Notes under the pieces: generated by a model
Database searches by the model: none
Seen by the model: only the letters and a program-made list of their open reading frames with translations
What the model was told of the DNA's origin: nothing
Translations under genes and position numbers: made by a program
Shown: positions 369 through 61,896 of the stretch, in pieces
How positions within the stretch are numbered: the stretch's first letter is position 1
Layout of the letters: every line of letters begins with the position of its first letter
Assembly: GCA_000690595.2 (NCBI GenBank)
Contig: JHUT02000001.1
Location: 558,001 to 622,000 of the forward strand
Direction: 5' to 3'
Origin: Natrinema mahii
Lineage (GTDB): Archaea > Halobacteriota > Halobacteria > Halobacteriales > Natrialbaceae
Length of the DNA stretch: 64,000 nt

Positions 369-449
369 GAGTAGCCGCTGCAACGAGTCACACACTGATC
401 GCAACGCCGTCGTTCGATTCAGGTGTGCAATGACGTTCAGCGGTTACTA
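369..449. repeat. 80-bp palindromic TA element, copy 1 (diverged)
   Basis: This copy is 81 bp. On the minus strand it begins TAGTAACCGCTGA and ends GCGGCTACTC, and it aligns over its whole length to the copies at 3461-3540 and 61817-61896 with one inserted base. A TA lies at 367-368; the second TA is mutated to TC (450-451 on the plus strand). Its end supplies the last codons and the TGA stop of the MTH865-like gene. Without the element and one TA, that gene would end at a TAG codon immediately after Glu-Leu. It looks like the oldest copy because both terminal bases have drifted. Confidence 0.8.
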
Positions 450-1429: not shown

Positions 1430-3046
1430 TCACTCGGTGAAGGGTTCGCCCAGCGCCGCCAGATCGACGTTCTCGGCGACGAGTCGGGCCGCCCGATCGG
1501 CGGGTGTCGTGCCGGTCGTCTCGGGTTCCCCCGACGGCGGCCCGTCGCCCGCTCCGTTCCCCGGTCGATCGACGCCGGCCGTCTCGGCGACGTGATCGAG
1601 AAACGCCGCTCGGACCGACTCGTTATCGAACAGACCGTGTAGATAGGTCCCCAGCACGCGCCCGCGGGCCGCACTCGAGTCGCCGAGCGGCCGCGTCACG
1701 TCGCCGACAGCCTCCGTCCGGCCCGCGTGGATCTCGTAGCCCGTCGCGGGACCCTCGGCACCGGCAAGCAGCGGCGACGCCGAGCCGTCGACGGGAACCG
1801 CAGTCTGCTCGAGGCGCTTCTCGCCCTCGAAGCGGGTCTCGACCGGTAGCAGGTCCAGTCCCTCGACGACGTCGTCCTCGCCGGTCCCCTCGAGCGCGGC
1901 GTTGGTGATCCGTTCACCCAACAGCTGATAGCCGCCACAGAGGCCGACGATCGGGCCGTCGAAGGCCGCGAGCGCGTCGGCGTAACCGGCCGCCTGCAGC
2001 GCCAGCAGGTCGTCGACCGTGTTCTTCGTCCCGGGGATCACGACCGCGTCGGCGTCGACGCCCGCGAGCGGGTCGGCCCCACCCGGACCCGGATCACCGC
2101 CGTCCCCGTCGACCGGGAGGTACACCACCGAGACGCCCGGCTCCGCCGCCAGCGCCTCGAGGTCGGTCGCGTTCGAGATGCGGGGGAGCCGCGGAACGGC
2201 GATCCGGAGCCGCCGGTCGGCCGCCACGCCGTCGTCGTCGCCGACGACGCCCCGTTCCTCGCTGCCGGGGAGGCCGACGCTGTCCTCCTCGGGGAGCCCG
2301 GGATCGTCGTAGGGCAGCACCCCGAGGATCGGCACGCCCGTTCGGGATTCGATCTCCTCGATGCCGGGCTCGAGCAGGGACGGGTCCCCGCGGAACTTCG
2401 TGATGAGCGCGCCGACGATGCGGTCCCGGAGGTCGTCGGGGACGAGTTCGATCGTGCCGTAGAGGCTGGCGAAGGCCCCGCCGCGTTCGATGTCGACCAG
2501 CAGGAGGATATCGGCGTCGGCGAACTCGGCCGTCTCGACGTTCGCGAGGTCCCGATCGTGGAGGTTGATCTCGCCGATGCTGCCCGCGCCCTCGGCGACG
2601 ATCACGTCGTTGTCGGCCGCCAGTCTGCGGTACGACTCCGCGGCGGCTTCGCGCGCGCGATTCCAGTACTCCTCGTAGTAGGTGCCGGCCGGCACGTGGT
2701 CGTGGGCCTCCCCCTGCAACACCAGCTGGCTCTCGCCGTCGCCGCGCGGTTTGAGCAGGACCGGGTTGCAGTCAGTGGTCGGGGTGGTCCGAGCCGCTCG
2801 AGCCTGGACGAACTGGGAGACGCCGATCTCGCCCCAGCGGTCGCTCCCTTCTGTCGGGTCGCCGTCGGTTCCGTCCTCGCCCTCGGCGTCCGGCCGCACG
2901 ACGACGCGGGCGTTGTTGCTCATGTTCTGGCCCTTGAACGGGGCGACGTCGACCCCGCGGTCGGCGAGCAGGCGACAGAGGCCGGCCGCGACCGTCGACT
3001 TACCGACGTGGCTCGCGGTCCCGGCGACGAGAAGCGTTCGTGTCAT
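1430..3046 (-). CDS. cbiP: Cobyric acid synthase CbiP/CobQ
   Basis: This 538-residue glutamine amidotransferase amidates four side-chain carboxylates of adenosylcobyrinic acid a,c-diamide in cobalamin synthesis, in the cytosol. The N-terminal half is a dethiobiotin-synthetase-like ATPase with [10 protein letters not shown] near residues 9-18 and [10 protein letters not shown] following. The C-terminal half is a class I glutaminase with the nucleophile in [11 protein letters not shown] and the histidine in TYLHGLFDN. It is slightly longer than bacterial CobQ because of acidic and Gly/Pro-rich loops. A second cobalamin gene, an adenosyltransferase, lies at 10.1 kb. The two are not in one operon. 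Confidence 0.95.
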
Positions 3047-3154
3047 CCGCGTTGACGGGAGTGGGAAAGCCGAGGGTATCGTCTTATCGGTTCGCGTTCG
3101 GCGCTTGGTGCCGTCCGACTCGCCGCCGTTTGCAACCGTTCGCAGGACCCCTCG

Positions 3155-3815
3155 TCACGGTAGTTCCGACGTACACTCGCGCAACTCGTCTTCCGTCTCC
3201 CAGACGCAGAGACGATCCCCGTCCGCGAGCATCTCAAAGATCGCCGTTTGCATCCCGCTGTAGGGGTTTTCGGGGTCGGCCTCCGTCTCGAGGTCCGCCG
3301 GTGTCAGGTCCTCGTACGTCCGTTTGAAGACGTCGGTCTTCTCGAAGTACTGCTCGAGCGCGGTGAAATAGCCCTGTTCGACGAGAAACCCGCCGCTGTC
3401 GTGTTCGGACACCCCGACGATGTAATCGGCGTAGTCGGCGAGGAGGCGGAACTTGAGGTATAGTAGCTCTTGAAACGATTTACACACCGATCACAACGCT
3501 GTCCTGCGATCGGGTGTGCATTGACTTTCAAGAGCTACTATAGGTATTCGTCCACTCGTTACGGATGTCGACCATCAGGAACGCGTAGCTGTCCGTCCGT
3601 CGGTTGAGCCGGTCTTTGACGAGTTGCAGGCGGTGGATCTCCGGTCGACCATAGCTGCCGAGAACGAAATACGACCGCCCGGTCGTGAGAAGCGGAGCCA
3701 ACTCCGTGACGCTGTGTTTGAGCGCTTCGTACTCCGCCGGCGTCAGCGACGACTCGTGGAGATACGACTCGGCCTTCGCCGCGAGTTCGTCGACCGTTAC
3801 CGGCTCCTCGCTCAT
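3155..3815 (-). pseudogene. Conserved hypothetical gene split by palindromic element copy 2
   Basis: Two reading frames flank the element: 3543-3815 (91 codons, starting MSEEPVTVDELAAKAESYL) and 3155-3457 (100 codons plus stop). Deleting the 80-bp element and one of its TA copies joins them in frame through a single TAC codon, giving a continuous 192-residue protein across ...NEWTNT-Y-LKFRLLADYAD. As the sequence stands, the first half ends five residues later (YSSS, TGA) inside the element, and the second half could only restart from an internal GTG. The intact protein looks like an acidic cytosolic haloarchaeal family of unknown function. It is classed as a pseudogene, although the N-terminal fragment may still be made. 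Confidence 0.8.
3461..3540. repeat. 80-bp palindromic TA element, copy 2 (best preserved)
   Basis: The element is 80 bp and begins and ends with perfect 15-bp inverted arms (TAGTAGCTCTTGAAA and its complement). TA dinucleotides stand directly outside at 3459-3460 and 3541-3542, as expected for a two-base target duplication. The interior is an imperfect palindrome with an asymmetric centre: CGATTTACACACC on one side and GGGTGTGCATTGAC on the other. It contains no open reading frame for a transposase, so it would be a non-autonomous, MITE-like element if mobile. It interrupts the conserved gene at 3155-3815. Confidence 0.9.
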
Positions 3816-3934
3816 CGCCCGGTTGCACGTCCCTTCGAAACTTCAATTTACCGACCGAAGGGGTGACCGAATCACAGGTAGCCGATTCGTATTTGAGCGA
3901 AACGCCTTTGCACGCACCGGACGAATCCATAGGT

Positions 3935-4345
3935 ATGAGTACCCCGGGCCGGCCGCCGGCGGACCTCCAGCGCGTCCGCGAGCGACTGAACGTCGTGACA
4001 CAGGAGACGCGGTTCGCGCTCGTCCAGGACCTCTTGGGTCACCCCGACGGGCTGCCGACGCTGAAGGAACTGGACTACGTGAACCCCAGCAAGAGTCGGA
4101 CGACGATCCGACAACACCTCCAGCAACTCGTCGAGGCGGACATCGTCGAGGAAGTGACGCTCCCGGACGACCGTCGACGGAACGACCTCCCCTACAAGTT
4201 CTACGGGATCAGCGACGAGGGGCGGGCGTTCCTCGAGGAACACGACCTCCTGCGGGCCGAGGAGACGTTGCGGTCCGTCTACGAACGGGTCGAGAAGACC
4301 GACGAGATCGAGCGATACGAAACCGCACCGCGACCGGAGCGATAG
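3935..4345 (+). CDS. Winged-helix (ArsR-like) transcription regulator
   Basis: About 136 residues from the ATG at 3935. The core TQETRFALVQDLLGHP, then LKELDYVNPSKSRTTIRQHLQQLVEADIVEE and YKFYGISDEGRAFLEEH, reads as a winged helix-turn-helix with a recognition helix around SKSRTTIRQHL and a C-terminal helix. An in-frame ATG 72 bases upstream exists but would extend into non-conserved sequence. The gene is convergent with the ABC exporter operon. It may respond to an unknown ligand; its target cannot be read from the sequence. Confidence 0.8.
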   Translation: MSTPGRPPADLQRVRERLNVVTQETRFALVQDLLGHPDGLPTLKELDYVNPSKSRTTIRQHLQQLVEADIVEEVTLPDDRRRNDLPYKFYGISDEGRAFLEEHDLLRAEETLRSVYERVEKTDEIERYETAPRPER

Positions 4346-4368
4346 GCTCGGTCGGCGTCTCCCGTCAG

Positions 4369-5850
4369 CTACTCCGTTCTGTATCGCGCGTCCCAGCGCG
4401 GCCCGGCACGACTCGAGAGGACGATCCCGACCGCACCCATCACGAGCCCGCCAAGGACGAGGACCGCGGCCAGTTCCACGGACGGCGGGACGACGACGAA
4501 GCCGGCCACGAGCGTCGGGACGAGCGCGACGGCGACGCCGACCGTGAACGTCGCGAAGCGGACGGCGTCGAAGAGGAACTCATTGGGATCGAAGCCGGCG
4601 ATGAAGACGGTGAGTCCGTAGTAGTACAGCGCATAGCCAGCGAGCAGTATCGCGCCGACGACGGCGTCGAGCGGCGTCGTGTCGAACCAGACGACGGCCG
4701 CGAGATACGGGACCGCGGCCGTCGGCGCGCCGACGAGGATAAAGGCCGTCCGCTTGGCCCGGAAGACGTCCGCGATCGAGACGGGGTAGGCAAGGTAGGC
4801 CTCGAGCGAGTCGAACTGGGTGAGCCAGTTGTAGGTGGTAAACGCCGAGAGCCCGAGGACGCCGCCGAAGAAGATCCCCGGGGCGGGCGCGACGCCGGTG
4901 ATCGAGTCGACGACGCCGACCAACGCGGCCACGAGCGCCAGCAGGATCGTCGACGAGACGAACGGCTTCCAGACCCCGCCCGAGGAGCGGGCGAGATCGA
5001 GCAGCGATTTCGTCACGAGGGGCGAATCGGCGACGGGCAGGGCCGCGCTGAGCCGGGCGAACCGGTCGGTCGCGGTCCGCGAGGGCCGGCCGTAGGTCGG
5101 ATCGTACAGCAGGAGCGAGCCCGCCGCGACGACGAGGGTCGCGGCGGCCAGTCCGCCGGCGCCGATCGCCGTCCCCTCGATCGGCACGAGGACGCGCCGG
5201 AGGACCGCACCCGCCTCGAGCGCCCACGAGCCGACGGCGGCGAGACCGATCGCCAGTCCGATACTCCACGGCGGCGCGCCCCGGGTCCGGATGGCGATCG
5301 CGGCGACGGTCGTCGTCATCCCGACGGCAAAGACCAGAAAGAGCGATCCCCAGAACAGGGCGACCGAGAGCGGCGTCGTCGCGGAGAGGCCCTCGGCGAC
5401 CGCGCCCCCCAGCGCCATCGGCAACACGAACGCGACGCCGTAGAACAGCGCGTCCTTCAGGAGAAAGACCCCGAGCAGCCGCCGGCGCGAGAGCGGCAGC
5501 GTCGTCGACGAGGACAGCAACAGCGAGAGCCGGCCGAAGACGTTCTCGAGCATGTCCGAGCCGGCAAAGCCCGCGGTGCCGCTGTAGAGGCCGAAGCCGG
5601 CCGCGAGGACGTGGAGACCGACGACGACCGTCCCCGGGGCGGTGCCGGTCTCGACGAGCGCAACCGAGCCGCCGACCGCGAGGGCGGCGATCACGAACGG
5701 AAAGAGCGCGAACCGCCAGCCCCCGAACAGCTCGGTGTGCATGCGCCACTCCTCGCGAAAGAGGATCGCGAGCAGCCGCCGGGTCGAGAGGCCGGAACCG
5801 GACCGGTTCGGGCTCGTCGGAGCGGTCGGGTCCGTCGTTTCGCCGGTCAT
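4369..5850 (-). CDS. ABC-2 type exporter permease
   Basis: The 493-residue protein is dominated by about ten to twelve hydrophobic segments, starting with FPFVIAALAVGGSVALV near residue 50, after a short cytosolic N-terminus with the motif LLAILFREEWRMHTELFGG. This is the layout of the membrane partner of ABC-2 exporters. The ATG overlaps the stop of the upstream ATPase gene by four bases, so the two are translationally coupled and form one transporter. The substrate is not apparent; related haloarchaeal pairs are annotated only as ABC transporters. Confidence 0.85.
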   Translation of the reverse strand: MTGETTDPTAPTSPNRSGSGLSTRRLLAILFREEWRMHTELFGGWRFALFPFVIAALAVGGSVALVETGTAPGTVVVGLHVLAAGFGLYSGTAGFAGSDMLENVFGRLSLLLSSSTTLPLSRRRLLGVFLLKDALFYGVAFVLPMALGGAVAEGLSATTPLSVALFWGSLFLVFAVGMTTTVAAIAIRTRGAPPWSIGLAIGLAAVGSWALEAGAVLRRVLVPIEGTAIGAGGLAAATLVVAAGSLLLYDPTYGRPSRTATDRFARLSAALPVADSPLVTKSLLDLARSSGGVWKPFVSSTILLALVAALVGVVDSITGVAPAPGIFFGGVLGLSAFTTYNWLTQFDSLEAYLAYPVSIADVFRAKRTAFILVGAPTAAVPYLAAVVWFDTTPLDAVVGAILLAGYALYYYGLTVFIAGFDPNEFLFDAVRFATFTVGVAVALVPTLVAGFVVVPPSVELAAVLVLGGLVMGAVGIVLSSRAGPRWDARYRTE

Positions 5851-6729: not shown

Positions 6730-6915
6730 GTGTGCGAACTTAACGCACCCTCACCAAAAACAATATGTGAAGAAATGAGACCGATACCTGCCGATCCAAC
6801 TGCGTCAAAATACTACGATCAAACCGCTGAAAAATGCTACTATGGCGACGGTTGCACGATCGTCTCGACTGGCTCAAAGAGGTCCATTACATCGAGGTTC
6901 AAGAGAGCCAACTAA
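6730..6915 (+). pseudogene. Remnant of a haloarchaeal IS transposase
   Basis: A 61-codon open frame contains PADPTASKYYDQTAEK followed by CYYGDGCTIVSTGSK. From memory this matches a conserved block in haloarchaeal IS4/IS5-type transposases, where a YYGxGCTIVSTG motif is followed by a segment like KIPIAAEFT. Here that segment is degraded to KRSITSRFK and the frame soon stops. The surrounding sequence is AT-richer than the flanking genes. No terminal repeats or other transposase pieces were recognised in 6603-6981, so this is a short fossil beside the repeat-rich surface protein gene. Family assignment is tentative. Confidence 0.5.
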
Positions 6916-60678: not shown

Positions 60679-60752
60679 GGGCGTGCTGGCCGCGGCTTCC
60701 GTTTTAAACGGTGGGACGCGGGTTCAAATACGAAGCCGCGGGAGTCGGGGGC

Positions 60753-61829
60753 GTGAGCTTCGTACTCGGTCGCGACGCCGACCGCGAGAACGGTCCGGTC
60801 TGCCGGCTCGGTGTCTACCGCGCGCTCGACGGCAGCGACGGCGCCCCGCTCGCACTCGATCTGGACTCCCCGCACGCGATCGCCCTCGTCGGCAAACGCG
60901 GCTACGGCAAGTCCCACACGATGGGCGTGATCGCGGAGGGGCTCGCGCGGGCACGCGGTCTCGCACCAGTCGTCGTCGATCCGATGGGGGCGTTCGCAAC
61001 GCTTGCGGCGTCGGCGGACGGTGAACCGGTCCCGGCGACGGTCGTCGCGGAGCCGACGGTCGCGCCCGCGTCGCTCGATCCCCGGTCGTGGTGTTCCCTG
61101 CTCGGCCTCTCGCCGGAAAGCGCCGCCGGGAGTCTCCTCTGGCGGGCCGCACAGGCCGAATCCACGATCGACGGCATGCGAACGCACGTCGAGTCGGCGG
61201 ACGCGGCACGCGCTGCGAGACGCGCCGCGACGAACCACCTGCGGCTGGCCGACTCGTGGAACGTCTTCGACGCCGACGGGCTCGGTGCTCGAGCGCTCGC
61301 CGGTCCCGAAATAACGGTCGCCGACGTCTCCGGCCTCTCGGCCGCCCCGATGAACGCCGTCTGTCGCGGGATCGCCGAAGCGCTGTACCGCGCCCGCGTC
61401 GACGCCGCGATCGACCGGCTCCCCTGGCTCTTGCTCGACGAGGCCCACACCTTCTTCGACGGCGTGGCCGCACCCGCCCTCGAGACGATCCTGACCCGCG
61501 GCCGCGCGCCCGGCGTCAGCCTCGTGGCCGCGACACAGCGCCCGAGTGCGCTCCCCGATGTCGGGATTTCACAGTCCGACATCCTCGTCTCGCACCGGCT
61601 TACCGCGGGGGACGATCTGGCGGCGCTCGAGGCCGCCCAGCCGACGTACGTCGGCGGCTCGCTGGCCGACGCCGATCGGCTGCCGGAGGCCCCCGGCGAG
61701 GTCCTCGTGATCGACGACGCCACGGAGACGGTCCACGCGGGGCGGGTGCGGGAGCGAGACACACCACACGGCGGCGAGAGCCCGGCCGCGAGCGACGTGG
61801 TCGTTCGTCCCGACTATAGTAGCCACTGA
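60753..61829 (+). CDS. HerA/DUF87-type ATPase
   Basis: About 358 residues from the GTG at 60753 (VSFVLGRDADRENGPVCRLGVYRALDG). The P-loop is VGKRGYGKSHTMGVIAEGL, with a Walker-B-like LPWLLLDEAHTFFDG and the sensor stretch GVSLVAATQRPSALPDVGISQSDILVSHRLT, all typical of HerA/FtsK-like translocases in archaea. Its last residues SSH and its TGA lie in palindromic element copy 3. Without the element the frame would stop at a TAG immediately after Pro-Asp. An upstream GTG at 60711 is less conserved, and a TATA-like TTCAAATA lies about 28 bases before 60753. Confidence 0.88.
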   Translation: MSFVLGRDADRENGPVCRLGVYRALDGSDGAPLALDLDSPHAIALVGKRGYGKSHTMGVIAEGLARARGLAPVVVDPMGAFATLAASADGEPVPATVVAEPTVAPASLDPRSWCSLLGLSPESAAGSLLWRAAQAESTIDGMRTHVESADAARAARRAATNHLRLADSWNVFDADGLGARALAGPEITVADVSGLSAAPMNAVCRGIAEALYRARVDAAIDRLPWLLLDEAHTFFDGVAAPALETILTRGRAPGVSLVAATQRPSALPDVGISQSDILVSHRLTAGDDLAALEAAQPTYVGGSLADADRLPEAPGEVLVIDDATETVHAGRVRERDTPHGGESPAASDVVVRPDYSSH

Positions 61830-61896
61830 AAGTCATTGCACACCCGATCGCACGACGGCTGTGCGACCGGTGTGTAAATCGTTTCAGTTGTTACTA
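61817..61896. repeat. 80-bp palindromic TA element, copy 3
   Basis: Exactly 80 bp, flanked by TA at 61815-61816 and 61897-61898. It begins TAGTAGCCACTGAAAGTC and ends ATCGTTTCAGTTGTTACTA. It is in the same orientation relative to the HerA-like gene as copies 1 and 2 are to theirs. The target before insertion would read GAC TAG, a stop codon. The insertion therefore extended the protein by Tyr-Ser-Ser-His and replaced TAG by the element's own TGA. Confidence 0.85.

Follow-up and report, generated by a model that had tools for sequence, protein, structure and literature searches.

A gene of Natrinema mahii split by an 80-bp MITE, with the empty site preserved in related haloarchaea

We analysed a stretch of 64,000 nucleotides from Natrinema mahii (contig JHUT02000001.1, positions 558,001 to 622,000; hereafter the window), in which a minus-strand gene is interrupted by an 80-bp element flanked on both sides by the dinucleotide TA (Table 1). 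The gene is bordered by positions 1430–3046, which we take to be a cobyric acid synthase-like gene, and on the other side by an open reading frame (3863–4345) that is presumably helix-turn-helix-like. Together with its flanking TAs (3459–3542) the element reads TATAGTAGCTCTTGAAA...TTTCAAGAGCTACTATA.

Table 1. Features of the interrupted gene, the inserted element and its relatives in the window
Feature	Position	Strand	Basis or remarks
Interrupted gene, whole extent	3155–3815	–	192 codons plus stop once 82 bp are removed
5' part of gene, 91 codons	3543–3815	–	273 bases; frame now continues to a TGA within the element
3' part of gene, 100 codons plus stop	3155–3457	–	303 bases
MITE of the TCTT subfamily; non-coding imperfect palindrome	3461–3540	.	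Sequence, copy family, folding
Terminal inverted repeat TAGTAGCTCTTGAAA	3461–3475	+	15-bp perfect repeat
Terminal inverted repeat TAGTAGCTCTTGAAA	3526–3540	–	15-bp perfect repeat
Target-site duplication TA, first copy	3459–3460	.	Single TA in orthologue L177
Target-site duplication TA, second copy	3541–3542	.	Single TA in orthologue L177
Second family member	61817–61896	–	Inserted at the stop codon (CTAG) of ORF 60711–61829
Third family member, degenerate, with mutated ends	370–449	+	At the 3' end of minus-strand ORF 437–937

The extents of the two gene parts had been assigned in an earlier note on this DNA and proved exact on recount. Excision of the 80 bp and one TA, as proposed there, reproduces an uninterrupted 192-codon frame with a single TAC codon at the join, made up of base 3458 and one TA. 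As the locus now stands, translation of the 5' part terminates inside the element (...NTYSSS stop), and the 3' part has an open frame that begins at a GTG within the element (3155–3487). The note further held that any other deletion length near this one breaks the frame. This is wrong, as deletions of 76, 79, 82, 85 and 88 bp, computed on the window, all leave it open. Because one deletion length in three preserves the frame, its restoration taken alone is a 1-in-3 coincidence and a weak argument.

The limits of the element and the disruption of the gene are settled by orthologues, which show a natural empty site independently of the frame. In the nearest genome of the same genus (G064, locus L177), window positions 2005–3460 and 3541–4890 align to abutting stretches, and the two flank alignments overlap by exactly two bases, which are TA. 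The joined flanks align to another locus (L059) over 863 bp with no gap and 95% identity. Empty sites are found in these two loci, in L072 and in others, and at the DNA level all eight orthologous loci compared are gapless across the junction (ACSTACCTCAAR). No gap occurs at the corresponding protein junction, NT-Y-LKF, in an alignment of 25 homologues reaching down to 45% identity, and whole-genome searches in the family recovered full-length uninterrupted homologues. Both the empty site and the continuity across the junction had been predicted from the window, and the orthologues show neither extra residues at the junction nor a constant division into two genes, the patterns named beforehand as counting against the prediction. 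The exact empty site bears out the two-base TA duplication as well. The original observation is therefore confirmed and its interpretation supported; the note leaned too heavily on the frame, an argument that is in any case unneeded.

We identify the element as a MITE: it is short and non-coding, carries terminal inverted repeats, occurs in many uniform copies, is bounded by a TA duplication and has empty counterparts. The end sequence is TAGTAGCYNYTGAAA. The two arms of 30 nt show 80% complementarity, which is perfect over the outer 15 bp, and as single-stranded DNA the 80 bp folds at -20.7 kcal/mol (z = -6.3 vs shuffles). Comparison with Rfam gave no match for the element or the gene, and no copy of the element was seen in the viral contigs searched, nor any match in a phage collection. 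This is a textbook MITE insertion and ordinary biology. A search of open papers turned up no description of the family.

At least 58 intact copies are present in this genome under a strict end pattern, compared with none for a reversed-pattern control. Eighteen other genomes of the genus carry copies, and across the Natrialbaceae the number of carriers is 34 of 125. Named carriers include Natrinema, Natronorubrum, Natronolimnohabitans, Natrialba and Halostagnicola, and more distant copies reside on plasmids of Haloarcula and Halomicrobium. Among 87 distinct copies taken from fetched loci, 81 are exactly 80 bp long and 73 have TA on both sides; these common limits and flanks independently bear out the boundaries drawn for the copy described here. 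The target is CTAG in 47 of the 73 TA-flanked copies, vs 18 of the 1097 TAs in the window (1.6%; p ~ 4e-65). Positions 8–10 of the ends covary between both ends across subfamilies (CCACT, CCGCT, CTCTT), with complementarity kept. This shows concerted evolution of the two ends, of which the cause may be transposase recognition or palindrome repair. A single base separates the copy within the gene from two others in this genome, and the insertion therefore looks recent. The locus provides, in sister species, a clean pair of filled and empty sites for an archaeal MITE family that is high in copy number and targets CTAG.

Stowaway elements, which are eukaryotic and of Tc1/mariner type, are small TA-duplicating elements moved in trans. 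The present MITE appears to work alike, although its sequence is unrelated to theirs. Stowaway elements are classed as MITEs in PMC1925063. A nearer likeness in host is offered by the haloarchaeal MITEs of Haloquadratum walsbyi (PMC3119063), which are also short, non-coding and high in copy number, generate a target duplication, have ends resembling those of a known transposon, and insert into genes and other elements. However, the family described here differs from them in sequence, in its exact 80-bp length and in host range.

The IS630 family, in particular its ISNma7 group (known from Natrialba magadii and Natrinema), shares with the MITE the TA duplication, the CTAG preference, the outer TAGTA and a similar core. 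In contrast to the MITE, these elements are about 1,055 bp long and encode a transposase, and their interiors are unrelated to that of the MITE. Two IS630 elements of this group and length are present in this genome, and one of them shares 92% identity with an element of Natrialba magadii whose annotation places it in the ISNma7 family. ISNma7-like elements in the genus (n = 16) have ends like TAGTA(A/G)NCRTTAGAA and TA on both sides, mostly with C before and G after. The likeness between these ends and those of the MITE is confined to approximately 11 outer bases, of which the first five were imposed by the search. IS630 reportedly prefers CTAG, to judge by the title of a 1991 study by Tenzen and Ohtsubo. 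Its mechanism is insertion at TA with duplication (PMC2170065). In both ISNma7-like elements of this genome (L089 and L090) the transposase lies in two overlapping frames around an A run, as if frameshifted or decayed.

Because the MITE combines TA duplication and CTAG targeting with ends similar to those of a co-resident IS630, an IS630-type transposase is the likely mover and the best candidate, and we somewhat favour the ISNma7 group itself. The same insertion could instead have been mobilised by a transposase from outside this group, belonging to an extinct or undetected TA-targeting element. This is rather unlikely, given that the outer end, the TA duplication and the CTAG preference are common to the MITE and the ISNma7 group within one genome. 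However, positions 12–13 of the ends differ between the two, and we found no recognisable IS630 in G065 or G097, which carry 55 and 14 intact MITE copies respectively, when searching for DDE_3 transposase and ISNma7-like DNA. Since these genomes are copy-rich and show no recognisable IS630 transposase, the mover there is either lost or a different element.

A search for a direct autonomous parent, based on the ends of the MITE itself, yielded none. In fetched loci, ends that seemed unpaired are mutated or cut copies, and the ORF between the ends of a 761-bp pair in G065 is unrelated. A 7.2-kb end pair in the same genome (L174 291–7527) represents a MITE copy that other transposons have split, and the roughly 7 kb within it hold a tyrosine-recombinase-like gene as well as several genes resembling transposases. 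In the window itself, a short ORF at 6730–6915 resembles part of a haloarchaeal transposase, with similar words in L174, and is probably a remnant.

Homologues of the interrupted gene occur in 106 of 125 Natrialbaceae genomes. None of the models in Pfam, NCBIfam or PADLOC matches it, and a sequence search of the PDB gave nothing significant. The AlphaFold model of an intact orthologue shows an alpha/beta Rossmann-like fold (mean pLDDT 77), for which the best PDB structure matches include TIR-STING, SPARTA TIR (TIR-APAZ) and DNPH1. This unnamed family perhaps has a TIR- or nucleoside-hydrolase-like fold; its function is a guess, because none of the structure matches has E <= 0.001.

Comparison of close species shows purifying selection on the gene (dN/dS 0.03–0.2). 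Among close orthologues (at least 66% identical, n = 15 including the window), five are broken: that of the window by the MITE, one by an insertion, two by premature stops and one by a frame disruption. In Natrinema thermotolerans DSM 11552 (G075) the orthologue carries an independent break at codon 104, following GATTAC (L175 2016–2120, L176 ~500–770), and its halves lie on two contigs with matching synteny. The insert there has GC-rich palindromic ends and resembles an IS200/IS605-type element. Because the gene is also broken in four of the 14 other close orthologues, among which the single-base cases may be sequencing errors, it looks conditionally dispensable. The locus also draws attention to a haloarchaeal gene family that is widespread, unnamed and repeatedly lost. 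An improbable extension of this picture is that an uncharacterised family with a TIR- or nucleoside-hydrolase-like fold is inactivated again and again, by different routes, as would be expected of a gene that is costly and conditional, for instance a defence factor, with the MITE one of several independent inactivators.

In the course of events that we hold to be highly probable, an IS630/Tc1-mariner-type transposase would have acted in trans on the 80-bp non-autonomous MITE, presumably by cut-and-paste movement. The MITE would have entered a TA inside the gene, which would have gained 82 bp including the duplicated TA. Since the 5' half of the frame now ends in the element and the 3' half is left without a start of its own, the gene is very probably inactive. 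The earlier note had called the gene split and probably inactive. The split is established by the intact orthologues, and inactivity is consistent with the ...NTYSSS stop and with the independent breakage in relatives. It is quite improbable that the split gene still functions through associating fragments or by reinitiation at the element's GTG: although the downstream part is open from that codon and has gathered no additional stops or frameshifts, visible decay is hardly to be expected after so recent-looking an insertion, the insert lies in a conserved stretch immediately before a predicted helix (residues 91–101), and four relatives carry broken versions of the same gene. That the two parts are naturally separate genes, or that the 80 bp are an ancestral portion lost in relatives, is already refuted by the empty sites, despite the open frames that persist in both halves: all 25 aligned homologues are continuous, including paralogues at 45–50% identity, the two flank alignments in L177 overlap by TA and no more, and the same 80 bp recur at dozens of unrelated sites.

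Recognition of this MITE is useful for the annotation of haloarchaeal genomes in which its copies truncate genes. The second family member in the window prolongs the protein of the ORF that it enters by four codons (YSSH), and this insertion is probably harmless since the gene merely ends four codons later. A preference of the copies for stop codons was considered and rejected: TAG ends a frame of at least 100 codons in 19 of 63 copies and at 22 of 84 control CTAG sites, so there is no stop-codon enrichment beyond the choice of CTAG. At a further locus (L045 1972–2131), two copies of the MITE lie head to tail and directly abut one another.
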